NCBI GenBank assembly: GCA_024653355.1 | Contig: JANLFQ010000001.1 | Location: 828,576-892,575 of the forward strand | Length of the DNA: 64,000 nt | Reading direction: 5' to 3' | Source: a candidate division WOR-3 bacterium | GTDB taxonomy: Bacteria > Hydrothermota > Tepidihabitantia > Tepidihabitantales > Tepidihabitantaceae | In this document: positions 48,980 to 64,000 of the stretch, piece after piece | Layout: every line of letters begins with the position of its first letter | Position numbering within the stretch: position 1 is the stretch's first letter | The notes under the pieces: generated by a model | Told to the model about the DNA's origin: nothing | What the model saw: only the letters and a program-made list of their open reading frames with translations | Databases searched by the model: none | Made by a program: the position numbers and the translations under genes

Positions 48980-49620
48980 TACTGGTACTCAACTGTGGTG
49001 CCCGGCGGCGGCACAAAACGGAAAAGTTTCTGCCCGAGCACCGGATTCCATCTTTGATTCTGCAAAACAAACCGGCATCTGTTGCCCCAGTCGTCGACAA
49101 ACGAAAAGGCATCAACCCGGGAGCCGCTTTTGTCCAGTTCCAGTTTCATATCCCGAAAAACCGCCCCCGCTTCATCTTGAATTAAAAGCAGTATTGTGCC
49201 ATCGGGCAACCTCTGTTCGGTAATTTTGCCTGTTGTATCAAGGAGCGGGGCAATAAACGCCAGCAAAGGAAACGGCTCCTGTCGCCTCTGCATCACCGCC
49301 CGTTTTTCCTCCGGAAGGTAAAACCAGACAATCGATTCATTGCCCACAATCACCTGACGCATCGGCTTGGTTACCTCCAGCCGAAATCGATTGGGCATCT
49401 GAAAGTAAAAACTGCCGGCAAAAAAGGTTGTTTCTCCTGTCATCTCCGCCACCAATCTCTCAGTAAAACTGCCACTGAGCGACTTTAGCCCGAGATACCG
49501 CTCCCTTAACTTTACCCAACCCCTAATTGCAGCGTTACCACCGGACTCTGTTTCAGGACCGGCAAAAACCGCTGCGGTAATTACAGAAAAAAACCAGATA
49601 AAAAGTTGCCCGGGTTTCAT
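48979..49620 (-). CDS. lolA: LolA-like outer-membrane lipoprotein carrier
   Basis: The 213-aa periplasmic protein has a signal peptide (MKPGQLFIWFFSVITAAVFAG) and the LolA pattern: LKSLSGSFTERLVAEM, GSFYFQMPNRFRLEV, VGNESIVWFYLPEEKRAV and a C-terminal VLGQKLFRFVPPPGT. It would carry lipoproteins released by the Lol ABC transporter encoded near 28 kb. It heads the lolA-thioesterase-rimO operon. Confidence 0.85.
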   Translation of the reverse strand: MKPGQLFIWFFSVITAAVFAGPETESGGNAAIRGWVKLRERYLGLKSLSGSFTERLVAEMTGETTFFAGSFYFQMPNRFRLEVTKPMRQVIVGNESIVWFYLPEEKRAVMQRRQEPFPLLAFIAPLLDTTGKITEQRLPDGTILLLIQDEAGAVFRDMKLELDKSGSRVDAFSFVDDWGNRCRFVLQNQRWNPVLGQKLFRFVPPPGTTVEYQ

Positions 49621-49626
49621 CGCTCA

Positions 49627-49654
49627 AGCATACAGAACATCGCCCATCAGTCAA
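49627..49654 (-). promoter_or_regulatory. Promoter of the lolA-rimO operon, predicted leaderless
   Basis: Minus strand TTGACT (49649-49654), 16 bp, TATGCT (49627-49632), then TGAGCG and the ATG at 49620. Confidence 0.75.
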
Positions 49655-49729
49655 CAAAAACCCTGTGCTGTGCCTTTTCTTACATACAAACTTGACCGAG
49701 CGCGAATAATCGTTAACTTTTAATACCCG

Positions 49730-50533
49730 GTGCGGAACTTTATCACCATACTTTGCGCCCTGTTTCCTGTTATCTTTATTTCCTTTGCCGGTTGCCGGCG
49801 CAGCGCCGAAACCAGCCTGACAATCGCTGGCTCAACTTCGGTTCAACCTTTTGCCGAACTCCTCGCCGAACTGTATATGCAGAAACACCCGGGTGTCGAA
49901 ATCAATGTCCAGGGCGGCGGTTCCAGTGCCGGCATCCGCGCCGTCCAGAACCGTATCTGCGACATCGGTATGTCCTCCCGCCCCTTAACGCCCGAGGAAC
50001 AAAACCTTCAGCAGTGGACAATCGCCCTTGATGGTATCGTTTTGATTGTTCATAACCAAAACCCGGTGAGAAACATCACACTTGAACAGTTAAAGGATGT
50101 CTTCTCGGGTAAAATTCGCAACTGGCGCGAACTGGGTGGTCCCGACCAGAAAATCACGGTCATCACGCGCGAAGAAGGTTCGGGAACAAGGGGATGTTTC
50201 GAAGAAATCGTAATGCACGGGGCACACTTCGCAGCGGACGCGCTTGTTCAGGACTCTAATGGTGCGGTGCGGGAAATTGTTGCCTCGGACCCATCCGCCA
50301 TTGGTTACATCTCATTCGGGCTTGTGGATGAGCGGGTTAGGGCTTTAGCCGTTAACGGCATCACCCCTTCGGAATCAACCATCATCGCTCATACCTACCC
50401 TCTTGCCCGGCGGTTCCTTTTTCTCACCAATGGTGAGCCCAATGCCCTTGCCCGTTCTTTCCTTGAGTTTGTATTGAGTCCGGAGGGCCAGAAAACGCTG
50501 GCGGATGAAGGATTGATTAAGGCGGTGCCATGA
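49730..50533 (+). CDS. pstS: Phosphate ABC transporter substrate-binding lipoprotein (first operon)
   Basis: The 267-aa protein has a lipoprotein signal ending SFAGC (C22) and the PstS fold with LTIAGSTSVQPFAELLAE, VQGGGSSAGIRAV, DIGMSSRPLT, REEGSGTRGCFEE and IGYISFG. The TSGS-type phosphate loop is visible as GSTS. It starts with GTG; TTGACC (49692) with a weak TAACTT (49714) lies upstream. The next gene overlaps by 4 bp. Confidence 0.93.
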   Translation: MRNFITILCALFPVIFISFAGCRRSAETSLTIAGSTSVQPFAELLAELYMQKHPGVEINVQGGGSSAGIRAVQNRICDIGMSSRPLTPEEQNLQQWTIALDGIVLIVHNQNPVRNITLEQLKDVFSGKIRNWRELGGPDQKITVITREEGSGTRGCFEEIVMHGAHFAADALVQDSNGAVREIVASDPSAIGYISFGLVDERVRALAVNGITPSESTIIAHTYPLARRFLFLTNGEPNALARSFLEFVLSPEGQKTLADEGLIKAVP

Positions 50534-51369
50534 GGGAAAAGTTTTTTGAAAAGATTTTACTGCTCTGCGCCCTTTCTGCGGTCACCGCTTTGTTTTTGAT
50601 TGCCCTTTTTATCTTTTATGAAGGTCTGCCGCTCATCTTCCGAATTGGCCCGGCAAACTTCATTTTGTCTTCAAACTGGGCGCCAACCAAGGGTCACTTT
50701 GGGATATTGCCAATGATTGTCGGCTCCCTGCAAGTAACCGTGCTCGCCTTAATCCTTGGGGGCACGCTGGGCCTTGCCTGTGCGATGTTCCTTGCCGAAT
50801 TTGCCCCGCGCTGGAGCGTCCGTATCCTTAAACCGCTGATTGAACTCCTTGCCGGCATCCCTTCAGTTGTCTATGGCTTCATCGGCGTTTTGGTTCTGGT
50901 GCCCCTAATTAGAAGAACGCTCGGTGGCCCGGGATTTTCCGTTCTTGCCGCGGGCATCATCCTCGGCATTATGATTCTACCCACTGTCATCGCCATATCC
51001 CTTGACGCTTTGAACGCGGTCCCGCTCAGTTATAAGGAAGGTTCGCTCGCGGTCGGCGCCACACGGTGGCAGACGCTCTATCGGCTGACCCTGCCGGCGG
51101 CGAAAAGTGGCATAATCGCCAGTTTAATCCTCGCTATGGGCCGAGCAATCGGCGAAACGATGGCGGTCATTATGGTTGCGGGTAACGCCCTTATTATACC
51201 AAAATCGCCCCTGGAGCCGGTCCGAACCCTCACCTCCAACATCGCGCTCGAGATGGGCTACGCCTCCGGCACCCATCAGGAGGCGCTCTTTGCCACGGGC
51301 GTCGTCCTCTTCATCATCGTCGCCCTTCTCAACACTTTTGCCCTGCTTGCCCTGCGAAAAAAGGTATGA
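50530..51369 (+). CDS. pstC: Phosphate ABC transporter permease PstC (first operon)
   Basis: The 279-aa inner-membrane protein has six helices and the permease EAA-like loop SYKEGSLAVGATRWQTLYRLTL and MGRAIGETMAVIMVAGN, typical of PstC. It overlaps pstS and pstA by 4 bp each, indicating translational coupling within a pstSCABB unit. Confidence 0.93.
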   Translation: MREKFFEKILLLCALSAVTALFLIALFIFYEGLPLIFRIGPANFILSSNWAPTKGHFGILPMIVGSLQVTVLALILGGTLGLACAMFLAEFAPRWSVRILKPLIELLAGIPSVVYGFIGVLVLVPLIRRTLGGPGFSVLAAGIILGIMILPTVIAISLDALNAVPLSYKEGSLAVGATRWQTLYRLTLPAAKSGIIASLILAMGRAIGETMAVIMVAGNALIIPKSPLEPVRTLTSNIALEMGYASGTHQEALFATGVVLFIIVALLNTFALLALRKKV

Positions 51370-52202
51370 AGCGCCGCCCCTTAACAATTCAGCGTCTCGT
51401 CTGGTTTCTCCTTGCCTTACTTACCCTCTTCACTCTGACAATCCTTTTCTTCATCATCGGTTACATAACCGCCAAAGGTGTGCCAACCCTGACCCCGGAG
51501 TTTCTCTTCGGGATGCCGGAACGGATGGGCAAAGAAGGTGGCATCCTGCCGACAATTGTTTCCACCATCTATCTTGCACTCCTTGCCATTGTCATCGCTA
51601 CACCGCTCGGGGTCGGCACCGCCGTCTACCTGACCGAATACACAAGAGAATCAGCCCTGACCCGGATTATTCGCTTTGGCGCCGATGCCCTTGCTGGTGT
51701 TCCTTCAATTATCTTCGGCTTATTTGGGTTCATCCTCTTTGTCATTCATCTGAAGATGGGCTGGTCAATTCTTGCCGGTAGCCTTACCCTCGCCGTGATG
51801 ATTCTCCCGACCATCATTCGCACCAGTGAAGAAGCGATTCGGACCGTACCCTATGCTTATCGGGAAGTCAGTTACTCGCTGGGAGGCACAAAATCCCAGA
51901 CAATTCTCAATGTCGTACTGCCCAATGCCCTGCCCGGCATCCTAACCGGAATTATTCTCGGCTTGGGCAGGAGCGTTGCTGAAACGGCCGCGGTAATATT
52001 CACCGCCGGCTCATCCCTTCGCATGCCCCGTTCAATTTTCGACCCGGCACGTACAATGGCGGTTCACTTCTATATCCTTGCCCGGGAGGGAATCTCAATG
52101 CCCCGAGCCTACGGCACCGCCCTGCTCTTAATCATCTCCATCCTCTTAATCAACGCCTTCGCCTATATCCTTATGTTCCGTCTTACCCGCCGCTTCCGAT
52201 AG
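51366..52202 (+). CDS. pstA: Phosphate ABC transporter permease PstA (first operon)
   Basis: The 278-aa protein has about six helices and the coupling loop PYAYREVSYSLGGTKSQTIL, with GIILGLGRSVAETAAVIFTAG. TPEFLFGMPERMGKEGGILP near residue 40 is typical of PstA. It abuts the first pstB gene directly. Confidence 0.93.
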   Translation: MKRRPLTIQRLVWFLLALLTLFTLTILFFIIGYITAKGVPTLTPEFLFGMPERMGKEGGILPTIVSTIYLALLAIVIATPLGVGTAVYLTEYTRESALTRIIRFGADALAGVPSIIFGLFGFILFVIHLKMGWSILAGSLTLAVMILPTIIRTSEEAIRTVPYAYREVSYSLGGTKSQTILNVVLPNALPGILTGIILGLGRSVAETAAVIFTAGSSLRMPRSIFDPARTMAVHFYILAREGISMPRAYGTALLLIISILLINAFAYILMFRLTRRFR

Positions 52203-52952
52203 ATGAACGAGAAAATTACCATTCAAAACCTCTCTGTTACCGCTGATGGTAAATCAATCCTCTCCAACATCAACCTCACCATCCTGGAGCATGAAATTTT
52301 CTCCATTATCGGTCCGGCTCACTCCGGCAAGACGACCCTTTTACGAACTATCAACCGGTTGATTGAAACCCAGCCCGGGTTTAGCCGAACCGGTACGCTA
52401 CTCCTTGATGGTAAAGATGTACTTAATTGGGATATCGAAACATTACGCCGGCGGGTTGGGCTCATATTTGCCACTCCGATTCCACTACCGGGCACCATCT
52501 TTGACAACATCGCCTACGGTCCCAGGCTCAAGGGCATTCGCAACAAAAGAAAACTAACCGAGATTGTCGAACACACGCTGCGTGCTGCCTTCCTCTGGGA
52601 TGAGGTAAAAGACCGCCTCTTCACTTCGGCACTGCGGCTCTCTGGCGGTCAGCAGCAAAGGCTCTGCATCGCTCGCACCCTCGCCCTTGACCCCGAGGTC
52701 GTAATGATGGATGAACCTTGTTCGGGCCTCGACCCCATCTCCACGGCACAGATTGAAGATGCTATGCGTCAGTTAAAAAACCGCTACACCTTCATTCTCG
52801 TAACCAACAATGTCAAACAGGCGGCACGGGTCTCGGACCGGGTTGCCTTTTTTCTCGCCGGTCAACTGATTGAAGTAAACTCAGCGGAAATCATCTTCAC
52901 CCGCCCGGCAGACAAACGCACCGATGACTACGTCTCCGGACGCATCGGTTGA
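52203..52952 (+). CDS. pstB: PstB-like ATPase with altered Q-loop and H-loop
   Basis: The 249-aa protein is clearly PstB by its C-terminus ([21 protein letters not shown]) and YGPRLKGI stretch. Walker A ([11 protein letters not shown], 37-47), the signature LSGGQ (146-150) and Walker B with E171 are intact. The Q-loop glutamine is replaced ([10 protein letters not shown]90) and the H-loop histidine is Asn (VTNN, N202). It therefore probably cannot hydrolyse ATP in its own site but can offer a normal signature to a partner, which the next gene, another PstB with a lost signature, appears to be. Confidence 0.9.
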
Positions 52953-52963
52953 GGAGCAAAACG

Positions 52964-53725
52964 ATGTTAACCACCACCTACGCAAAACTCCAGACCAAAA
53001 ACCTCAATGTGTTTTATGGCGCTTTCCGGGCGGTTCAGGATGTCAACATCAACTTCCCGCCGTGTGCCATCACCGCAATTATCGGACCTTCGGGTTGTGG
53101 TAAATCCACCCTCTTACGGAGTTTCAACCGGATGAACGAACTGATTGAAGGTGCTCGCATCCGGGGAGAAATTCTCCTTGACGGTATCGATATTTACCGA
53201 CTCAATGTCCTGGAACTGCGCCAGCGCGTCGGCATGGTTTTTCAACGACCTAACGCCTTCCCGTTCTCGGTGTTCGACAATGTTGCCTATGGTCCACGAA
53301 TCCACGGTGAAAGGCGTCACTCTCGACTTGCCGAAATCGTTGAACGCAGTTTGCGGGCTGTTCGTCTCTGGGACGAACTCAAAGACCACCTTCATAAAAA
53401 TGCCTTAACCCTTACCGACGAACAGCGCCAGCGCCTCTGCATCGCCCGTTTACTAGCAGTTGAACCCGAAGTACTGCTCCTTGACGAACCCTGCTCGGCT
53501 CTCGACCCAATTGCCACTCTGCACATTGAAGAACTACTCCGCCAGCTCCGGGCGAAATACACTATTATCATCGTCACCCACAATATGCAACAAGCGGCAC
53601 GGGTTTCAGACTTCACCGGATTTATGCTTCTGGGACGCCTTATTGAGTTCGGCACAACCAGCCAGATTTTTACCAAACCAAAACACACCGACACCGAAAA
53701 CTACATTTCGGGAAAATTCGGCTAA
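52964..53725 (+). CDS. pstB: PstB-like ATPase with lost LSGGQ signature
   Basis: The 253-aa protein has intact Walker A ([11 protein letters not shown], 41-51), Q-loop (FQRPNAFP, Q94), Walker B (E175) and H-loop ([14 protein letters not shown]206), but the signature reads LTDEQ (150-154) instead of LSGGQ. Its defects mirror those of the preceding gene, so one full ATP site would form only in a heterodimer. The ATG at 52964 has GAGGAG 7 bp upstream; a TTG at 52949 overlapping the previous stop is less likely. Confidence 0.9.
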
Positions 53726-53750
53726 TTAATTGATTTTTGGTTAGTTAGCC
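53720..53750. other. Hairpin between the two phosphate operons
   Basis: GGCTAATTAA (53720-53729) pairs with TTAGTTAGCC (53741-53750) with one G-U pair and an 11-nt T-rich loop. It includes the stop codon of the second pstB gene. No T-run follows, so it is a weak terminator candidate or an mRNA-end structure. Confidence 0.35.
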
Positions 53751-53784
53751 AGAATTCGCTTTTACCCCTATACCACCGAACGAG

Positions 53785-53838
53785 TTAACCAAAAATTAAC
53801 CAAAGGGTTATACCTATTTAACTTTCTGCCCGTACCAT
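53785..53838 (+). promoter_or_regulatory. Pho-box array and promoter of the second phosphate operon
   Basis: Four 6-bp units lie at an exact 11-bp period: TTAACC (53785), TTAACC (53796), GTTATA (53807) and TTAACT (53818). A TACCAT -10 candidate follows at 53833-53838, placing the repeats at about -60 to -22. This is the layout of PhoP boxes in Bacillus (TTAACA-like repeats with 5-bp spacers). No -35 hexamer is evident, as expected for an activated promoter. Confidence 0.65.
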
Positions 53839-53876
53839 TTTTAACGATGTCTAAAAACCCTAAAAAGGAGGCAAAT

Positions 53877-55067
53877 TTGTTACGTAAATCTATCGTCCTG
53901 TTTGCGGTGGCAATTTTCACCGCCGCGCTGTTCGCCCTCGACCCAGGGCAAACTGAACTTGAACACAACGGCTGGTTCCGCTACACCAACCAATCATCTG
54001 ATTTCAAAATTACCGACCCGAGCGTCAGTCGTTTCTCTCTGGAACGGGGCTATCTCCGGTTTTCGTATCAGTGGGCTCCGCCCTTCTTTACGAAAATGAC
54101 CGTCGACATCTTCTCATCAGACAAATACCCCGAAGGAGCTACTGTCCGGCTAAAAGAGGCTTACGCCGACATCGCAATGCCCGTAGTGCGCGATTTTAAT
54201 CTCACCGCCGGTTTGCAGAAGCACTACTTTGGCCTTATCTACTCCTGGGATTACACCCATCCGGAAAAATCACTCGCCGATGACCAGGGAATTTGCGCCT
54301 CAGCCGACTACGGATTGACCATCAACGGCTATCTCCCATCTGGCCTGGGAGAACTGCAACTTGGTGTCTATAACGGCGAAGGCTATAAGTACGCTGGTAA
54401 GTACGTCAACTTATCCCCCGAACTCCTCGGTAATGTTCGACTCACACCATTCCCCGGCATCGCCCTTGGCGTCTCAATGTTCACAAATGCCGCTGACCAA
54501 ATTCATTACAAAAACGATAAAAAAGGCAGAATAACTCAATCCGGTAGCACATTTTTTATGAATGCCGACACAACAAATAAAAACCGTTTTGCCCTTGCCC
54601 CGATGTTCAAACTGGCTTTTGGTCCGGTATCTCTGCTCGGCGAATACATCAATTACAACTACACCCGCTTTTTCAGTTACTACAAAATCAACTTTGACAG
54701 CGCCGGCGCAGTTATCGACTCCACCTTAAACGAAAAGACAAAGAAATACTCGTTCAGCGGTTTAGACCTTGTGCCGACAGTTACTCTTGCAAAACGAACC
54801 TTAGAAATTTTCGGCCGCTTCTCAATGTGGGACCGTAAAGAGGAACACGACAATGAAATGCAACTCAATAAAGATAAAAGTTTCGTCCGCTACGGTGCTG
54901 GCTTTAATTACCATTTCATGCGGCGGGAGAAAGGCAAGCCCGGTCTTGAGTTCCAGTTTGCCTGGACCAGAACTCAACCCAAAAATACCGAGTTAAAACC
55001 AACCGATGTTCTGCTCGCCCAGGTGAGGTTTGAGTGGAGCACGATAATCAATAAACCAGAATTATAA
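53877..55067 (+). CDS. Outer-membrane porin-like beta-barrel of the phosphate operon
   Basis: The 396-aa product has a signal peptide (MLRKSIVLFAVAIFTAALFA), then beta-strand-rich sequence with alternating hydrophobic residues and the SLERGYLRFSYQ and RLKEAYADIAMP stretches seen in phosphate-selective (OprO/OprP-type) or short porins; the C-terminal part (VLLAQVRFEWS) ends in a strand. The TTG start is chosen because AAGGAGG (53865-53871) lies 5 bp upstream; an ATG at 53847 falls before that site. Its position ahead of pstS suggests a phosphate entry channel. Confidence 0.8.
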   Translation: MLRKSIVLFAVAIFTAALFALDPGQTELEHNGWFRYTNQSSDFKITDPSVSRFSLERGYLRFSYQWAPPFFTKMTVDIFSSDKYPEGATVRLKEAYADIAMPVVRDFNLTAGLQKHYFGLIYSWDYTHPEKSLADDQGICASADYGLTINGYLPSGLGELQLGVYNGEGYKYAGKYVNLSPELLGNVRLTPFPGIALGVSMFTNAADQIHYKNDKKGRITQSGSTFFMNADTTNKNRFALAPMFKLAFGPVSLLGEYINYNYTRFFSYYKINFDSAGAVIDSTLNEKTKKYSFSGLDLVPTVTLAKRTLEIFGRFSMWDRKEEHDNEMQLNKDKSFVRYGAGFNYHFMRREKGKPGLEFQFAWTRTQPKNTELKPTDVLLAQVRFEWSTIINKPEL

Positions 55068-55089
55068 ATAAGTTAAAGGAGGCAATAAC

Positions 55090-55950
55090 ATGAAAAAACT
55101 TCTTGCGTTAATAACAACCTTTGCCCTGAGCACATCGCTCATTGCGGGCGAAATTATCGTCAAGGGTTCAGACACAATGCTGAACCTCGTACAGCGGCTT
55201 GCTGAGGGATTTGCCGCGGTCCGTGGTGACGTCACGGTTTCGGTTGCGGGCGGTGGTTCCGGTGTCGGCATCACCGCAATCACCAACCGTGAGGTGGACA
55301 TCGCCAACGCATCGCGCGCCATCAAATCAAAGGAAATTTCGGCGGCTCGCGCCCAGGGCGTGAATCCGGTTGAAATCGTTATCGCCCTTGACGGCTTAGC
55401 GGTTATCGTCAACAGTAAGAATCCGGTAAAGAACCTTACCGTTCAGCAAATCGGTGCCATATACCGCGGAGAAATCAAAAACTGGAACGAAGTCGGCGGT
55501 CCCAACAAGAAGATCGTCCTCTATGGCCGACAACCAAACTCCGGAACCTTCGTCTTCTTCCGGGAAGAAGTGGTTAAAGGGGAGTACGCATCTTATATGC
55601 GCCAGATGAACGGCAACGCCCAGATTGTTGATGCGGTTAAAAACGACGAAGGTGGCATTGGTTATGTGGGGCTGGGCTACATTCGTAATGTCGAAGGCAT
55701 AAGACCTTTAGCGGTCGCAAAAAGTTCCCAAGACCAGTACATCTCTCCTTTGAACGAAGCCGATGTGAAAAGCGGTGCTTATCCTCTTACCCGACCTCTT
55801 TATCAGTACACCAACGGTAAACCCAAAGGTCAGGTGCTGGATTTTATTCGGTTTGAACTGAGCCCGGAAGGTCAGAAAATCGTTGAGGAAGAAGGGTTTG
55901 TTGCCGTCACCCAACCGTACATCGAAAAGAACAGTAAAATACTGCAGTGA
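55090..55950 (+). CDS. pstS: Phosphate ABC transporter substrate-binding protein (second operon)
   Basis: The 286-aa protein has a signal peptide (MKKLLALITTFALSTSLIAG), without a lipobox, and the PstS motifs IIVKGSDTMLNLVQRLAEG, VAGGGSGVGITAI, DIANASRAI, PNSGTFVFFREEV and IGYVGLGY. The phosphate loop reads GSDT rather than GSTS of the first operon. Unlike the first PstS it is soluble and periplasmic. AAAGGAGG lies 7 bp before the ATG. Confidence 0.93.
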   Translation: MKKLLALITTFALSTSLIAGEIIVKGSDTMLNLVQRLAEGFAAVRGDVTVSVAGGGSGVGITAITNREVDIANASRAIKSKEISAARAQGVNPVEIVIALDGLAVIVNSKNPVKNLTVQQIGAIYRGEIKNWNEVGGPNKKIVLYGRQPNSGTFVFFREEVVKGEYASYMRQMNGNAQIVDAVKNDEGGIGYVGLGYIRNVEGIRPLAVAKSSQDQYISPLNEADVKSGAYPLTRPLYQYTNGKPKGQVLDFIRFELSPEGQKIVEEEGFVAVTQPYIEKNSKILQ

Positions 55951-55979
55951 ACAACGATAAAAGGTAAAAGAAGGTTCCT

Positions 55980-56906
55980 GTGAAACTGCGCAAGAAGATT
56001 GACAAATTCGCAGGAATAACCTTCTTTGTTAACGCTGTTTTGGCCGCCGGGGTCTTGTTTGGTATCCTTCTCTTTCTGTTCTCCTACGGCGTACGGGCTT
56101 TTATTCCAGCACCGGGAACTGACCCCGGCGACCCAGAATCCCAGCCGCTTACAATACGCGGGTTTCTATTTGGAACTGTTTGGAACCCTGATGCCTACGG
56201 CAAACCACACTACGGAATAATCCCGTTATTTCTGGGCAGCTTTTTAACAACACTTATCGCCCTCATTATTTCGGTCCCGCTTGGTATTGCCGGTGCCATA
56301 TTTATCGCGGAACGACTAACCGGTTGGGTGCGCATCGGTGTTAAAATGGTAGTGGAACTCTTTGCCGGATTTCCCTCAGTAGTTATCGGCTTATTTGGAC
56401 TGGTAGTTCTGGCGCCTATTATTGCTCGGACTTTTAACCTTTCATCCGGCTTGAACCTTTTCACCGCCAGTATCATCCTCGCATTGATGTCTCTCCCCAC
56501 AATTATCTCAGTATCCGAAGATGCCCTGCGCGTTGTCCCTCACTCCTATCGGGAAGCAGCGTACGCCCTCGGAGCATCACCCTGGACTACCGCAATCAAG
56601 GTAATCCTACCGGCAGCGCGCTCCGGTATTCTGGCGGCGGTGATGCTTGGCTTTGGCCGGGCAATTGGTGAAACGATGGCAGTTTTAATGGTGGCGGGGA
56701 ATGCACCCATCATTCCCCGCTCGCTTTTTGACCCGGTTCGCACCATTACTACAACCCTTGCCATTGAACTGGGCGAAACCGCTGCCAATTCCATCCACTT
56801 CTTCAGCCTTTTTGCCCTTGGTTTTGTCCTCTTTGTTATCGCCTTAGCGACCAACTTAATCGCCGAATCGTTAATCAGACGGGAAAAAAGGAGTTTCACT
56901 TTGTGA
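55980..56906 (+). CDS. pstC: Phosphate ABC transporter permease PstC (second operon)
   Basis: The 308-aa inner-membrane protein has six helices, an IAERLTGWVRIG stretch, the loop SYREAAYALGASPWTTAIKV and FGRAIGETMAVLMVAGNAP. The periplasmic stretch after the first helix is longer than in the first-operon PstC. It starts with GTG and its stop overlaps the GTG of pstA by 4 bp. Confidence 0.93.
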   Translation: MKLRKKIDKFAGITFFVNAVLAAGVLFGILLFLFSYGVRAFIPAPGTDPGDPESQPLTIRGFLFGTVWNPDAYGKPHYGIIPLFLGSFLTTLIALIISVPLGIAGAIFIAERLTGWVRIGVKMVVELFAGFPSVVIGLFGLVVLAPIIARTFNLSSGLNLFTASIILALMSLPTIISVSEDALRVVPHSYREAAYALGASPWTTAIKVILPAARSGILAAVMLGFGRAIGETMAVLMVAGNAPIIPRSLFDPVRTITTTLAIELGETAANSIHFFSLFALGFVLFVIALATNLIAESLIRREKRSFTL

Positions 56907-57802
56907 ACAAAACTCTTCCACCGCCCGAAAATTACCGTCGGCTAAACAAAAAGCGTTTCACCAGTAACATCGGCTTTGCCATCCTTGCCATCCCTTTAAT
57001 AATTTTCATCCTTTTTATCGGTTTTATGGTTTTCTACCTATTCAAGAACGGTATCAATGTCGTATCCTGGAAATTTCTCACCCAGCCACCCGAAAAGGGA
57101 ATGACCGCCGGCGGAATTTTCCCCTGTATCATCGGCACATTATATGTTACTTTTATATCGCTCCTGTTTTCTGTACCAGTCGGCCTGTTTTCCGGTATCT
57201 ATCTTGCGGAGTACGCGCCAAACAACATTATTACTCAGGTTATGCGCAGCTCAATCCGCGCCCTTGCCGGTATTCCGAGTATTGTCTACGGACTTTTTGG
57301 AGTCGCTCTATTTATTCGAGCGTTCCAGATCGGCCTTTCGGTACTCGCGTCAGGATTAACCCTCGGGCTGATGAGCCTACCCTGGATTATTACAACGGTC
57401 GAGGAGTCTATTACGGCAATTCCCAACTCTTTTCGCGAAGGAGCACTCGCCCTGGGCGCAACTAAATGGGAGTCAATTCGGCGCAATGTTTTACCTTACG
57501 CATTCCCTGGCATTCTCACCGGCGTGCTCCTCGCTATCGCCCGCACCGTAGGTGAAACAGCGCCCATCCTGTTCACCGGCGTAACATATTTTACTCGTCA
57601 AATTCCCCGCACGCCCCTGGAAAAATTTATGGCGTTGCCCTATCATATCTTTGTTCTGGCAACCCAGCACGACCAACTTACCAAAGTGCGCCCGATTGCG
57701 TTCGCTACCGCGGTTGTATTACTGATTTTTGTACTCGGGTTTGACATCATCGCCTTTTTTACGAGAATGCGTTTTGCTGCAACTAACAAATGGCAGGTTT
57801 AA
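56903..57802 (+). CDS. pstA: Phosphate ABC transporter permease PstA (second operon)
   Basis: The 299-aa protein has six helices and the coupling loop NSFREGALALGATKWESIRR, with ARTVGETAPILFTGVTYF, the PstA hallmark. The stretch KFLTQPPEKGMTAGGIFPC is typical of the family. It precedes pstB by 3 bp. Confidence 0.93.
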   Translation: MNKTLPPPENYRRLNKKRFTSNIGFAILAIPLIIFILFIGFMVFYLFKNGINVVSWKFLTQPPEKGMTAGGIFPCIIGTLYVTFISLLFSVPVGLFSGIYLAEYAPNNIITQVMRSSIRALAGIPSIVYGLFGVALFIRAFQIGLSVLASGLTLGLMSLPWIITTVEESITAIPNSFREGALALGATKWESIRRNVLPYAFPGILTGVLLAIARTVGETAPILFTGVTYFTRQIPRTPLEKFMALPYHIFVLATQHDQLTKVRPIAFATAVVLLIFVLGFDIIAFFTRMRFAATNKWQV

Positions 57803-57805
57803 AAT

Positions 57806-58564
57806 ATGGAAAAAGGACATATTGAGATCAGGAATCTAAACCTCTGGTTTGGGACAAATCACATTCTTAAAAATATCTCGTTTACTATTTTACCCCGAAC
57901 AGTAACCGCCATTATGGGTCCCTCGGGGTGTGGCAAGTCCACATTGCTGCGCAGCATCAACCGGATGAACGACCTCATCACCGATACAAGAATTACCGGC
58001 AGTATCCTGATCGATGGCGAAGATATTTTCCGCGAAAAGGTTGATGTTATTGAACTGCGCAAACGGGTGGGTATGGTTTTCCAGAAACCGAACCCCTTCC
58101 CCAAATCAATCTTTGAAAATGTCGCTTTCGGTATCAAAATTCATAACCTGGCATCGGGTGAGGAGGTGTCGCGCCGGGTTAAAGAAGCACTTCAGTTGGC
58201 AAACCTCTGGGACGAAGTTAAACACCGGCTGGGAGACAACGCCTTTTCCCTCTCCGGCGGACAACAACAGCGCCTCTGCATCGCGCGCTGTCTGGCTGTC
58301 GGTCCCGAAATTATACTTCTTGATGAACCGGCTTCTGCTCTTGACCCATTTTCTACGGCAAAACTGGAAGAACTAATTGTCCAGTTGAAGAAATATTACA
58401 CCATCGTCATCGTCACCCACAACTTGCAACAGGCTGCTCGTGTATCAGAATACTGTGCCTTTTTAATGCTAGGTGAACTTGTAGAGTTCGGGCCGACGGA
58501 ACGAATTTTTACTAAGCCGCAGGATAAGCGCACCGAAGATTTTCTAACCGGTAAGTTTGGCTAA
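57806..58564 (+). CDS. pstB: Phosphate ABC transporter ATPase PstB, canonical (second operon)
   Basis: The 252-aa ATPase has all motifs intact: Walker [13 protein letters not shown]-loop FQKPNPFP (Q93), signature LSGGQ (149-153), Walker [11 protein letters not shown] (E174) and H-loop [12 protein letters not shown] (H205). It is a useful in-window reference for the two altered PstB proteins of the first operon. It should work as a homodimer. Confidence 0.95.
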
Positions 58565-58573
58565 TGTCGGTAC

Positions 58574-58601
58574 TTGTCCAGAGGAAAAATTTAGTTATCA
58601 T
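58574..58601 (+). promoter_or_regulatory. Internal promoter before phoU
   Basis: TTGTCC (58574-58579), 16 bp, TATCAT (58596-58601), then a short leader with AGAGGAAA before the ATG at 58630. It would allow phoU and the regulator genes to be made at a basal level. Confidence 0.5.
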
Positions 58602-58629
58602 TATTATAGTGACAGAGAGGAAATGAACA

Positions 58630-59298
58630 ATGACACTACTTGAAGAAAAAATCGCTGTTTTGAAAGAAAAACTGCTGGCAATGGCGGCCGCAGTAGAAAA
58701 TATGGTCGATAGCAGTATTCAGGCACTGGTGAAAAAAGACCACCAACTGGCTGAAAAGGTTATCAATGAGATTGAACCGAAAATCAACCAAGAGGAGATT
58801 GAAATTGAAGATACCGCCATTAACCTCATTGCCCTGCATCAACCCGAGGCGTCCAATCTCCGTACCATTACGATGGTTATTAAAATAAACAATGACTTGG
58901 AGCGCATCGGCGACCACGCGGTTAACATCGCCGAGGCTGCGCTGTTCCTTATCCCGCGTCCCGCGGTAAAACCGCTAATTGACCTTCCCCGAATGGCGCA
59001 ACATACGATTCAAATGCTGAGCGACAGCCTCGATGCCTTTACAAAAAAAGATGCCGAACTGGCTCGTCAGGTCTGTGCCCGCGACTCAATTGTTGATTCG
59101 TTGAAAGACCAGATTAGCCGCGAACTTATCACTTATATGACCAGTGATGCGACAACCATTGACCGGGCATTAAAACTGATGCTGATATCTTTGAATCTGG
59201 AACGCATTGCCGACCTCGCAACCAATATCTCCGAAGATGTGGTTTATGCAGTGACCGGCGCGGTAATCAAACATGGCAAATGTGAATTCCTCACCTGA
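58630..59298 (+). CDS. phoU: Phosphate signalling protein PhoU
   Basis: The 222-aa all-helical protein has two PhoU repeats, with LIALHQPEASNLRTITMVIKI in part and NDLERIGDHAVNIAEAA in the first and LNLERIADLATNISEDVVY in the second; the E/D-x-x-R/D-x-x-D/N positions bind metal. PhoU links PstB to the sensor kinase and keeps the pathway off when phosphate is ample. Its end overlaps the response-regulator gene by 26 bp. Confidence 0.94.
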   Translation: MTLLEEKIAVLKEKLLAMAAAVENMVDSSIQALVKKDHQLAEKVINEIEPKINQEEIEIEDTAINLIALHQPEASNLRTITMVIKINNDLERIGDHAVNIAEAALFLIPRPAVKPLIDLPRMAQHTIQMLSDSLDAFTKKDAELARQVCARDSIVDSLKDQISRELITYMTSDATTIDRALKLMLISLNLERIADLATNISEDVVYAVTGAVIKHGKCEFLT

Positions 59299-60007
59299 TA
59301 AAAAACAGGAACAAACGCCGCTTTCCCGAACGCGACTTATTGCAATCGTGGACGACGAACCGGATATTCTTGAACTACTATCCCTCCACCTGACAAAATC
59401 GGGTTTTAGCGTCCAAAAGATGACAAGCGGCGCCGAGCTTTATCAATTCCTCGAAAAGACAATACCGCATCTGATAATACTTGACCTTATGCTCCCGGAT
59501 GTCGATGGTATTGATATCTGTCGTTTTCTCAAACAGGAACCGCGGTTTGCCTCGATACCGATAATTATGCTTACCGCACGCGGCGAAGAATCGGACCGTA
59601 TTACCGGTTTAGAGTTAGGTGCTGATGACTACATTACGAAACCGTTTTCGCCTAAAGAGGTTGTTGCCCGTGTCCGCGCCGTACTACGGCGGCAGGAACA
59701 GATAACCGCCGACGAAAAAATTACCGTTGGTACGGAGTTGGTTATTTATCCTAAAAAGCATGAAGTAACCGCGGCGGGTAGGAAAATTGACCTCACCGCT
59801 ACCGAGTTCCGGATTTTAATGGTATTGGCAGCGAAACCCGGCTGGGTTTTTACCCGGGAGCAGATTATCGATGAACTGTGGGGCTATGACAAACCGATAT
59901 TAGACCGCACTATTGATGTCCATATTCAGCACCTGCGAAAAAAAATGGGCAAAGCGGGCGAACTGATCCGCAATATCCGCGGGGTCGGGTATAAACTCGA
60001 ACTTTAA
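59273..60007 (+). CDS. phoB: PhoB/PhoP-like response regulator
   Basis: The 244-aa OmpR-type regulator has a receiver domain with acidic pocket D27-D28, phosphoacceptor D71 (LILDLMLPDVDG-like), T101 and K123, and a winged-helix DNA-binding domain (LTATEFRILMVLAAKPG, VDVHIQHLRKKMG-like). It is the likely binder of the 11-bp-spaced repeats ahead of the porin gene. The first ~20 residues are an unusual polar extension and the true start may be later. Confidence 0.9.
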   Translation: MANVNSSPDKKQEQTPLSRTRLIAIVDDEPDILELLSLHLTKSGFSVQKMTSGAELYQFLEKTIPHLIILDLMLPDVDGIDICRFLKQEPRFASIPIIMLTARGEESDRITGLELGADDYITKPFSPKEVVARVRAVLRRQEQITADEKITVGTELVIYPKKHEVTAAGRKIDLTATEFRILMVLAAKPGWVFTREQIIDELWGYDKPILDRTIDVHIQHLRKKMGKAGELIRNIRGVGYKLEL

Positions 60008-60016
60008 AGCAACTGC

Positions 60017-61363
60017 GTGAATCTTAAACCAGAGAAGCAACTTTTCCTGCACATCCTCGGTAGGAATCTTATTGTTGCCAGCCTTCCCGCCGCTGTTTTG
60101 TTAATCCTTTCCCTGCTTAAACTACCAACAGCAACAGTCCTGGTATTCACGAGCATCGTCCTGATAGCCGTATCGATATTAAGTGCTTGGATGCTGTTTT
60201 TCCGGCTGCGGACTCTGGCGGTGGCAATTGAAGAGGTATGCGTCCGCCTCGGCTCCGGTCAGACTCCCGTGCCATCGCCACCGGTTCGTTTGCAAATAGT
60301 CACCCGTCTGTTTAATGTGTTAAACAAAACTGCCAATCGCATTGATAAAGAAATCGTCCCATTACGACAGAAAAATGCGTGGTGGGATGCCATCTTCGAC
60401 ACATCACAAGAAGGGTTGTTAATTCTGGACCGTCAAAATAAAATCATTGCCGTGAATAATAAATTACAGCAGTTTTTGAATGGCGAACAAGCCACGGGGA
60501 AATTTTACTGGGAAGTTATTCGCACACCGCATCTCTCAAATCTGCTCCAACAATTAAGTTCAGGACAATCCACCGCCTACGGTGAAATTGAGTTCAATTC
60601 AAGGACATTTCTCTGTAGCGCAGTCAATTTATACGATACCGGCCAGCGCGTTCTGACTTTTAGCGATATTACCGAAATCGTCACCACGGAAAAAATTAAA
60701 AGGGAGTTTGTTGCCAGCGTCTCACACGAACTAAAAACACCATTAACCGCAATTAAGGGCTATATTGAAACGATGGAAGAAATCGCCGATGAAACCATTG
60801 CCGTTTATTTACAAATCGTCCGCCGTCATACCGAACGCTTAATCAACCTTGTTCAGGATTTACTCAACCTCTCGGCACTGGAAAATCCGGATGTCAAGCT
60901 TTATTGGGAGGATGTCAACCTGAAAACCCTCGCGAATAATGTTCTCGCCATCTTTGAGAACTCAGCAAAAAGGAAGGGTCTGAAACTAATACAAGAGATA
61001 CCCGAACCACCACCGGTGATAAAAGGTGACGGACTGCGGTTAGAGCAGGCACTTATCAACCTGCTGGATAACGCAATCAAATACACCGAAAAAGGCACCG
61101 TGTCGCTGCGTGTTAAGGTGGAAGATGGCCAGGTAGTGATTTCGATCCGAGATACGGGTATTGGCATTCCCGCCGAACACATCCCGAGAATTTTTGAGCG
61201 ATTCTATGTTGTTGACCGCTCCCGTTCAAGACAAAGCGGTGGAACCGGTTTGGGACTGGCAATTGTCAAACATATCGTTGAACTACATCAGGGTAAAATT
61301 AGCGTTGAAAGCACCCCGGGTAAGGGTGCAGAATTCTCCGTGGTCTTGCCAATGAAAATATGA
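60017..61363 (+). CDS. phoR: PhoR-like sensor histidine kinase
   Basis: The 448-aa kinase has two N-terminal membrane helices (ASLPAAVLLILSLL and VLVFTSIVLIAVSILSAWML) with almost no periplasmic loop, a HAMP-like and PAS region (DTSQEGLLILDRQNKII), the HisKA site H237 in ASVSHELKTPLTAIKG, and an ATPase domain with NLLDNAIKYTEKG, DTGIGIPAEH and GGTGLGLAIVKHI. The short loop fits PhoR-type kinases, which sense phosphate through PstB/PhoU rather than directly. It starts with GTG and overlaps the next gene by 4 bp. Confidence 0.92.
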   Translation: MNLKPEKQLFLHILGRNLIVASLPAAVLLILSLLKLPTATVLVFTSIVLIAVSILSAWMLFFRLRTLAVAIEEVCVRLGSGQTPVPSPPVRLQIVTRLFNVLNKTANRIDKEIVPLRQKNAWWDAIFDTSQEGLLILDRQNKIIAVNNKLQQFLNGEQATGKFYWEVIRTPHLSNLLQQLSSGQSTAYGEIEFNSRTFLCSAVNLYDTGQRVLTFSDITEIVTTEKIKREFVASVSHELKTPLTAIKGYIETMEEIADETIAVYLQIVRRHTERLINLVQDLLNLSALENPDVKLYWEDVNLKTLANNVLAIFENSAKRKGLKLIQEIPEPPPVIKGDGLRLEQALINLLDNAIKYTEKGTVSLRVKVEDGQVVISIRDTGIGIPAEHIPRIFERFYVVDRSRSRQSGGTGLGLAIVKHIVELHQGKISVESTPGKGAEFSVVLPMKI

Positions 61364-62097
61364 AATTACCATTTACCATCGCTCACATTTCTGACCTACA
61401 TCTCGGTGGCTCTTATTTTGTCCCCGAGTGGGGTAATAGATTGGTCGATTTGCTGAACCGGTTAAAGCCCGACCTCATAGTTATCACCGGTGACCTCACT
61501 ACAGAAGGTCATATTCATGAATATGACCAGGTAGTCAGATATTTGAAACGATTTCATAGCAAAAATAGAATTATAGTTCCTGGAAATCATGATGCCCGCA
61601 ATGAAGGATATGTGATTTTTGAAGAAATCTTTGGTACTCGCTATCCTTTCTACAAAAAAAGTAACATAGCAATTTTTGGTGTGGACTCAAGCCAGCCCGA
61701 CATTGATGACGGACATATCGGCCGTGCCAATTATCCGATAATCACCCAGAAATTAAGTAACCCGACACAAATTAAAATCATGGCGATGCATCATCACCTC
61801 GTTCCCATACCCGGAACCGGAAGGGAACGCCATATACCCACTGATGCTGGTGATGTTTTGAAATTGTGCATCGACCTTGATATCCGCATAATACTATCCG
61901 GTCACAAACATCGTCCTTGGGTGTGGCTCCTCGAAAAAACTTGGCTCATCACTGGCGGCACTGCCACTTCACAACGCCTAAAGGGCCGGTCATATCCGTC
62001 GTTTAACATCTTGAAAATATTTAAAACCCAATTCACCTTAACAGAAATAAATGTTGCAACCGGTACAGTTCAGAAAAAACTAAAAGCGTCTCTTTGA
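61360..62097 (+). CDS. Metallophosphoesterase coupled to the Pho regulators
   Basis: The 245-aa cytoplasmic-type enzyme has the full calcineurin-like metal set: SDLHLGG (D12, H14), VITGDLT, VPGNHDAR (N76, H77), MAMHHHL and LSGHKHRPW. It belongs to the Icc/CpdA-like group that cleaves cyclic nucleotides or other phosphodiesters. The ATG overlaps the kinase stop (ATGA), so it is translated with the phosphate regulators. No signal peptide is seen. The substrate is unknown. Its 3' end overlaps the convergent propeller gene by 18 bp. Confidence 0.87.
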   Translation: MKLPFTIAHISDLHLGGSYFVPEWGNRLVDLLNRLKPDLIVITGDLTTEGHIHEYDQVVRYLKRFHSKNRIIVPGNHDARNEGYVIFEEIFGTRYPFYKKSNIAIFGVDSSQPDIDDGHIGRANYPIITQKLSNPTQIKIMAMHHHLVPIPGTGRERHIPTDAGDVLKLCIDLDIRIILSGHKHRPWVWLLEKTWLITGGTATSQRLKGRSYPSFNILKIFKTQFTLTEINVATGTVQKKLKASL

Positions 62098-64000
62098 TCT
62101 TCCTGTAATGATTAATTTTTGAATCCGCATAGCCTGCGTCGGACGCTCCTTAGAAAGTATGAAATAGACGCCGGGCTCTAAATTTCCACTAAACCGCATT
62201 CTGCCTGAAACATCAACAATATGCACCTCTCCTTCCCTCCCTCCAATAAGTTGCTTGGGCGAAGTGATAGTTAGTAAACCTTCCGGCTCACGGCAGGAAA
62301 ATTCTTGTTCGTGTTTACCTTTCTTCGTCCCCACGATTTCTGATTTGGCACATCCTTTTACTGCTGACGGGTCGAAACTCCAGAACTCCCGGGAATTGTT
62401 GCCTTTGAGCGCATAAACTTTGCCCCTCGTAAATGCCAGACCGGCACCGGTACCAACCCGTCGCAATTTTGTCCCCTTCGGTATATCTTCCATCTCCTCC
62501 CATTTATCAGCCTGGATATCGTAGCGCCAGAACTCAGTTGTCCGTCCTCCTTTGAAGGCATATATGTAATTAACGCCGTCACTGGCAAGCGCCGCCCCAT
62601 CCTTTGCACGCCGCAACCCGTTCCTACCCGTAAAAGGCAAGGAGGTGCACTCCCGCCAGCTGTCTCGGCTAATTAGATATTCATAAAACTCATTGGTCGA
62701 ACCTTTTAAACAGAAAAGCCTTTGGCCCACCGCCACCAGCGCGCTTCCCTTCTTCACCGGCTTATTTAACGCCCCACGCGGCACCGGCCGCCGCGCATGC
62801 CACTCACCCCTCTCCACCAGATAAAATAAAAAGTCATCTGTACCGCTACCTTTCAGACAGTACACCCTGCCGCTGTCCCGTTTAGGAACAAACGACAAGC
62901 CAGAACCATATCTAACATTTCTTGTCCCGTCTGGCAGACCGGGTAGTTGTTGCCAGGAGTCTAAAGTTACATCATAACACCAGAACTCTCTGGTATTCCC
63001 TCCTTTCAAAAGGTAAATCTTACTCCTGCCGTTCCAGCAGACTGCCGCTCCACCCTTCGGCTTTCTCCCTTTTATTCCACCCGGCACCGGTTGTCGTTCC
63101 ACCCAGTTTCGCTCGTTCACATCATAAAAGTACCACTCATCTGTCCTACCTTTCAATGCATAAACCTTATCGGCTGTTGCTACTAAACATCCACCCGCCC
63201 GCACCGGCAGATTCTTCACTCCAGCAGGCACCGAGAGTTCTTCCTTCCATTGCCGGTAAAGAATCGATTCAACGACAACTACCTTATTTAAGGAATCGTT
63301 GCCCGGGTTTTCGTCCCCTTGTAAATCGCAACGGGCAAAAGTTAAATAAAGTCCCGGTGTTGCCTGCCACTGCCGAAAACAAACCTCCCTCTCAGCACCA
63401 GGCTCAACCGTTGCTCTGGATGAGTCAATATACTCAAAATCCGCGTCGGCTCTCATTCGACTAACCGCAAAATATACCAACATATCCGCCGATTCTTCAC
63501 CATAATTACCCACCACCGCAACCGGCTCAACTACTCCTTCGGGCACTGTGTCTTTAGGCATTTCTATTTTGATTAGTCCTCCGTCCCTTCTTATAACGCG
63601 GACCTGTTTACTAATCGAGTCGTTTTCCCTTCTCATATCTCCAATTAGCATTGCCCCAACCCAGATTGAATAACGCCCGCCTCTTGCCCGCCAGTGCCCA
63701 AGCGTAACTAGAGAAGAACACTCGGGCGCCATCATAGTTTCAATTGAATCCAGATAAACTGCCGTTCCAGCGCTGTCGTAAATTTCGCACCGCAACCAGA
63801 AACCTGCCACCTCGTTTCCAAAATTATGAATTAGTGCCTCGGGCTGAATTTCTCCGGGATTAACGACTTCACCAGGACTTGTAATCTCAACCACACCCAC
63901 ATCCCTTACCCGAACAAAAAACGTATCCTTAACCGCATCGTTGTCATTGCGACGATCGGGGGCAAGTTGCGTTGTACAGCAAACCAAACTCCAACCCCTT
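62080..64000 (-). CDS. Kelch-like propeller protein with C-terminal sorting-like tail, partial (N-terminus beyond the right edge)
   Basis: The frame is open to the window end (640 codons). It begins inside a CARDB-like repeat (RGWSLVCCTTQLAPD), has further repeats (VRDVGVVEITSPGEVVNPGE, RVIRRDGGLIKIEMP), then six kelch-like units with VYALKGRTDEWYFYDV, YLLKGGNTREFWCYDV, YAFKGGRTTEFWRYDI and others, separated by basic loops such as NKPVKKGSALVA. The tail (PGVYFILSKERP, RIQKLIITG) resembles a sorting domain. A TTG at 63987 is in frame but family architecture shows the protein continues. It is a close architectural relative of the 1336-aa protein at 14122-18132. Confidence 0.87.
   Translation of the reverse strand, partial: RGWSLVCCTTQLAPDRRNDNDAVKDTFFVRVRDVGVVEITSPGEVVNPGEIQPEALIHNFGNEVAGFWLRCEIYDSAGTAVYLDSIETMMAPECSSLVTLGHWRARGGRYSIWVGAMLIGDMRRENDSISKQVRVIRRDGGLIKIEMPKDTVPEGVVEPVAVVGNYGEESADMLVYFAVSRMRADADFEYIDSSRATVEPGAEREVCFRQWQATPGLYLTFARCDLQGDENPGNDSLNKVVVVESILYRQWKEELSVPAGVKNLPVRAGGCLVATADKVYALKGRTDEWYFYDVNERNWVERQPVPGGIKGRKPKGGAAVCWNGRSKIYLLKGGNTREFWCYDVTLDSWQQLPGLPDGTRNVRYGSGLSFVPKRDSGRVYCLKGSGTDDFLFYLVERGEWHARRPVPRGALNKPVKKGSALVAVGQRLFCLKGSTNEFYEYLISRDSWRECTSLPFTGRNGLRRAKDGAALASDGVNYIYAFKGGRTTEFWRYDIQADKWEEMEDIPKGTKLRRVGTGAGLAFTRGKVYALKGNNSREFWSFDPSAVKGCAKSEIVGTKKGKHEQEFSCREPEGLLTITSPKQLIGGREGEVHIVDVSGRMRFSGNLEPGVYFILSKERPTQAMRIQKLIITGRSKRRF

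Follow-up and report, generated by a model that had tools for sequence, protein, structure and literature searches.

A cluster of phosphate genes lies within the window, the 64-kb stretch of DNA analysed here, which comes from the 1.88-Mb genome of a bacterium of candidate division WOR-3 (Caldifarciminota in the NCBI listing). The genes run on one strand from a porin gene to a metallophosphoesterase gene, up to 62097, the largest gap being at most 65 bp (Table 1). Upstream of the porin gene are short repeats with a period of exactly 11 bp across four units, followed by a -10 box. The first-pass annotation, which had read TTAACC, TTAACC, GTTATA and TTAACT at exact 11-bp steps ending 9 bp before TACCAT, is borne out by the sequence. 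The third unit is a poor match, with a core TTATAC that begins at 53808 (gTTATAc), and TACCAT is a weak -10 box. No -35 box is recognisable before it, and a search for sigma70-type promoter pairs at the array returned none. As the 11-bp period alone is defined, the unit can equally be written as 7+4 or 8+3 bp.

Table 1. Features of the array and of the gene cluster downstream, in window coordinates
Feature	Position	Strand	Basis or remark
Pho-box unit 1, TTAACC	53785..53790	+	T, T, A, A and C each kept in 16-20 of 20 relatives
Pho-box unit 2, TTAACC	53796..53801	+	Sequence and relatives' matrix
Pho-box unit 3, GTTATA, degenerate	53807..53812	+	Sequence and relatives' matrix
Pho-box unit 4, TTAACT, adjoins promoter	53818..53823	+	Sequence and relatives' matrix
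-10 box, TACCAT	53833..53838	+	9 bp (53824-53832) after unit 4
Probable RBS of porin gene, AAGGAGG	53865..53871	+	Sequence; kept in sister species
Porin gene, probable TTG start	53877..55067	+	Related to phosphate-selective porins O/P
pstS	55090..55950	+	PF12849, E 3.6e-43
pstC	55980..56906	+	ORF; orthologs in same order in relatives
pstA	56903..57802	+	ORF; orthologs in same order in relatives
pstB	57806..58564	+	ORF; orthologs in same order in relatives
Probable internal box-free sigma70-like promoter of phoU-phoB-phoR, TTGTCC-16 bp-TATCAT	58574..58601	+	pstB-phoU gap
phoU	58630..59298	+	PF01895, E 5.9e-47
phoB-like response regulator gene, product the presumed binder of the repeats	59273..60007	+	PF00486
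phoR-like histidine kinase gene, with PAS domain	60017..61363	+	Domain search
Metallophosphoesterase gene	61360..62097	+	PF00149

The probable start of the porin is TTG 53877 and not ATG 53847, the first start of the open reading frame, which lies 8 bp past the -10 box. A direct Pfam search with the porin gave no match; a profile of its family aligned with the Porin_O_P profile from other phyla over 270 columns, with 98.3% probability and an E value of 1.7e-14. An Rfam search of 49000-62200 detected no RNA family. A separate pst operon with two pstB copies (49730-53725) ends 59 bp 5' of the array. No Pho-box array was found in its promoter region, before pstS1 (49730), and a TTGACC...TAACTT-like promoter lies so near its GTG start (49690-49732) that the transcript may be leaderless. 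In the second PstB of this operon (52949-53725), the ABC signature LSGGQ is replaced by LTDEQ, with Walker A and B both intact. The LTDEQ-type PstB is kept in four relatives, each time paired with a normal PstB, which suggests that the two PstBs of the operon could form an asymmetric heterodimer.

The full array pattern is matched once in the window, with no mismatch. Chance repetition in AT-rich DNA, for which the frequency of TTAA in AT-rich intergenic sequence might speak, is a vanishingly improbable origin: shuffled windows, with three mismatches allowed, are expected to yield 0.01 matches, the window has a GC content of 51%, and the fixed geometry is kept across families and phyla. Chance is in fact already refuted by the conservation of the array, described below. 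A weight matrix built from 20 relatives, with the window's species and its closest sister left out, scored the site at 35.7 bits, the next best site in the 64 kb reaching 13.4 (mean -48, sd 12.6). No other site in the 1.88-Mb genome comes within two mismatches of the pattern, and matches with three are about as frequent as those of the reversed control pattern. The search for more arrays before other phosphate genes of the genome, which the first-pass annotation had suggested, thus yielded none below three mismatches. Partial forms in the same genome were close to control values, with 5 two-unit TTAAC pairs against 6 in the control and 3 half-arrays followed by a -10 box against 1.

PhoB was searched for in 60 relatives, and clusters were read where the ortholog was clear. 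All 23 genomes with a porin beside the cluster, the window's own included, carry four units at 11-bp steps and a -10 box upstream of the porin-pst cluster. The first-pass annotation had made its proposal depend on conservation of the repeats in related genomes and, since they are conserved, the proposal stands on this point. The array scored above the best of 100 shuffles in 22 of the 23 (leave-one-out), failing in G005. The offset of the -10 box from the start of unit 1 is 48 bp in 20 of the 23 genomes and 47 bp in 3. For the three most divergent boxes, the best-scoring window was taken as the position. Unit 3 reads TTTAT or TTAAT in the relatives, its fifth base being T in 19 of 20 as against C in units 1 and 2. 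In GC-rich genera the units have drifted to TTGAC or CTGAC with period and position retained, and in two genomes (G020 and G027) the array is ~0.95 kb upstream of the porin gene, with small ORFs in between. These two genomes also have a low-molecular-weight phosphatase/ArsC-like gene, named by sequence resemblance, between phoR and the Pho box (L077:709-1197). Second boxes were seen in G017, before a 112-residue ORF upstream of the porin box (L039:2237-2290), and in G130, where, of two Pho boxes ~0.5 kb apart, one stands before a small sigma-factor-like gene and the other before a porin-like gene (L233:440-1958). Extra array matches in G020 and G025 were set aside, as no clear phosphate gene was present and the control pattern also matched a few times.

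A phylum-wide scan, with a pattern that required no -10 box, detected 37 arrays in 35 of 147 genomes, the reversed control pattern yielding 2. Most of the 21 arrays that were read are located upstream of pst, porin or phosphoesterase genes, and TANNNT is found at offset 48 in 11 of them, with less than half that number at any other offset. In G061, a Pho box is directly 5' of a metallophosphoesterase gene (L214:1501-2063) whose product is 56% identical to that of 61360-62097, which suggests that the window's metallophosphoesterase may likewise belong to the Pho regulon. The array is composed of four 11-bp direct repeats, directly precedes a -10 box at a conserved offset, where a -35 element would otherwise be expected, and stands before phosphate genes in orthologous promoters. 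Judged from its sequence, it is a real, conserved TTAAC-type Pho box in an uncultivated diderm phylum, of a kind already known.

The PhoB-type regulator of the cluster has its gene beside phoU, phoR and pst. It is the genome's one PF00486 (OmpR/PhoB-type DNA-binding) protein, with a DNA-binding domain homologous to the one in E. coli PhoB (1gxp, E 7.5e-15). OmpR/PhoB regulators oligomerise in tandem on the direct repeats that they bind, and Mycobacterium PhoP binds tri- and tetra-repeats (PMC4832192). The recognition helix reads DVHI in most relatives and DTHI or DTHM in three GC-rich genomes with TTGAC/CTGAC boxes, a pairing of helix change and box drift that may be a co-change and is only a lead.

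The cluster had been predicted to form an autoregulatory circuit through its own PhoB/PhoR-like pair. The pair is indeed present downstream of the array in the same gene run, and in the window's genus phoB follows the box in an unbroken series of genes. The circuit is nevertheless qualified by a box-free promoter before phoU and by the many relatives in which phoB is outside the box-driven unit. An equivalent of the internal promoter occurs in 8 of 8 family members, with a mean of 9.4 of 12 matches as against 7.0 in shuffles; taken by itself, the window's own match falls short of significance (p 0.12). In lineages with phoB before the porin gene, the phoB upstream region contains no array, and a TTGACN/TTGAAN-type promoter is found at 10 of 12 phoB genes, most scoring better than shuffles. 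The array is constant, whereas phoB is found in different places; read-through feedback is likely in this cluster, and the basal supply appears to be separate. Many cyanobacteria are reported to be without autoregulation (PMC1906773). Autoregulation is plausible in this cluster but would be only part of the picture.

The current definition of the PHO box is built on direct-repeat units of 11 nt, with similar features reported in B. subtilis, Sinorhizobium, Corynebacterium and Streptomyces (PMC4415409). Under this definition the difference between 7-bp units in E. coli and 6+5 bp in Bacillus is one of notation. The contrast between a Bacillus-like and an E. coli box drawn in the first-pass annotation therefore fails, the 7-bp units of E. 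coli also repeating every 11 bp (PMC4415409, PMC4832192). The E. coli PhoB box (CTGTCAT + 4 bp; PMC4415409, PMC4832192) resembles the array in its 11-bp direct repeat, in its location ~10 bp before the -10 box (PMC1906773) and in the homologous DNA-binding domains of the PhoB proteins. It differs in being defined as two units, not four, and in having CTGTCAT in place of TTAACC; CTGTCAT units are absent from the array. The PhoP boxes of Mycobacterium tuberculosis and Streptomyces are likewise direct repeats of 7 + 4 bp, bound by tandem dimers and by oligomers on tri- and tetra-repeats as proposed for the array, whereas their motifs, TCACAGC and GTTCACC, are different (PMC4832192).

With the Bacillus PhoP box the array shares a TTAAC core, hexamers in tandem close to the promoter and a place before phosphate genes. 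No unit matches the hexamer TT(T/A/C)ACA at all six positions; units 1, 2 and 4 match at five. Units 1 and 2 end in C, in contrast to the published consensus, while the relatives often have A and TTAACA is present in many of their boxes. B. subtilis is without PhoU (PMC4415409), whereas the cluster in the window has phoU. The cyanobacterial SphR box (CTTAACCT, 8 bp + 3 bp; PMC1906773) has in common with the array the TTAACC core, the 11-bp period, three or four tandem units, a place before pst and phosphatase genes, and diderm hosts. Read as 8-bp repeats with a 3-bp linker, GTTAACCA, ATTAACCA and TTTAACTT match the SphR core at the 11-bp period and unit 3 departs from it; in the box of ATCC29413 phoA the third unit, TTTATATT, resembles unit 3 of the array. 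The SphR box differs in belonging to another phylum and in its more variable distance to the gene. By its letters, the array motif is nearest to the cyanobacterial box (PMC1906773) and near the Bacillus hexamer (PMC6327384).

The same architecture was found well beyond WOR-3. A scan of one genome per species for the array with a -10 box returned at least 120 stretches, of which 80 were read. Co-oriented pst or phoU genes lie within 3 kb downstream at 33 of the 80 sites read (of at least 120), the mirror direction giving 4 of 80. According to the record titles, the 33 sites are spread over Bacillota, Chloroflexota, Spirochaetota, Cyanobacteriota, Bacteroidota and Ignavibacteria, Elusimicrobiota, Omnitrophota, Cloacimonadota, Planctomycetota, Atribacteria, Delongbacteria, WOR-3 and a deltaproteobacterium. 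The first gene downstream is PstS-type in 20 of 70 cases and Porin_O_P in 6 of 70, with alkaline phosphatase, Na/Pi cotransporter and PhoU also represented; in the mirror control PstS-type genes come first in 3 of 52, and Porin_O_P in none among the matches listed. Since motif and spacing were preset in the pattern, the scan shows breadth, not frequency. About a dozen phyla, including many diderm ones, thus have the TTAAC-type architecture before phosphate genes, and with the same design in so many unrelated phyla the array is not peculiar to Bacillus.

Description of the array as a Bacillus-like box in a diderm consequently falls away, as cyanobacteria, themselves diderms, use CTTAACCT (PMC1906773) and many other diderm phyla have the same architecture. 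A box of the Bacillus PhoP type in the strict sense, which this diderm had acquired or alone possessed and which drove a simple autoregulatory operon, would account for the resemblance to TT(T/A/C)ACA (PMC6327384) and for phoB/phoR downstream in the window's genus. It is nevertheless a very remote prospect, given that motif and geometry recur in about a dozen phyla and in cyanobacteria (PMC1906773), that the box-free promoter before phoU is conserved, and that phoB in many relatives is outside the box-driven unit, usually with a TTGACA-type promoter of its own. The ancestral bacterial Pho promoter, predating the monoderm/diderm split, could have had this form of four TTAAC-like units in 11-bp steps, the last ending 9 bp from the -10 box, with its geometry retained in at least a dozen phyla, unit 3 as a conserved weak unit and the CTGTCAT (E. 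coli) and GC-rich variants derived from it. We offer this origin tentatively, as a possibility that falls somewhat short of an even prospect.

It is highly probable that the four repeats constitute a Pho box acting as a PhoB-activated switch for porin-pst and the genes reached by read-through, with a basal box-free promoter before phoU. When phosphate is scarce, the PhoR-like kinase would phosphorylate the PhoB-like regulator, and four PhoB molecules, as two tandem dimers, would line up along the same face of the DNA, each occupying one 11-bp turn, the last unit taking the place of a -35 element. Bound PhoB would recruit sigma70 polymerase to the weak TACCAT box, with transcription predicted to start near 53845. 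This would switch on porin-pstS-pstC-pstA-pstB and, via read-through, phoU-phoB-phoR and the phosphoesterase gene. Basal PhoU, PhoB and PhoR would come from the separate promoter before phoU, so that read-through would add positive feedback. The Pho-type operator in activator position before porin-pst, as originally proposed, is supported by a conserved array that stands before a -10 box without a -35 element. Certain OmpR/PhoB regulators repress, and the repeats might serve PhoB as a repressor or bind another regulator altogether. This is highly unlikely: the arrangement resembles class II activation, repressors more often have sites that overlap a complete promoter, and a search of the PF00486 family detected no second member in the genome.

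With activation by PhoB as the preferred reading, an uncultivated phylum gains a well-supported circuit from sequence alone, consisting of one regulator, one four-unit array and one operon. The results also suggest that bacteria at large, and not Bacillus in particular, use the TTAAC box at a fixed distance from the -10 box as a Pho promoter. The evolution of the PhoB operator becomes testable through matched pairs of regulator and box, including those of relatives in which TTAAC is drifting to CTGAC.
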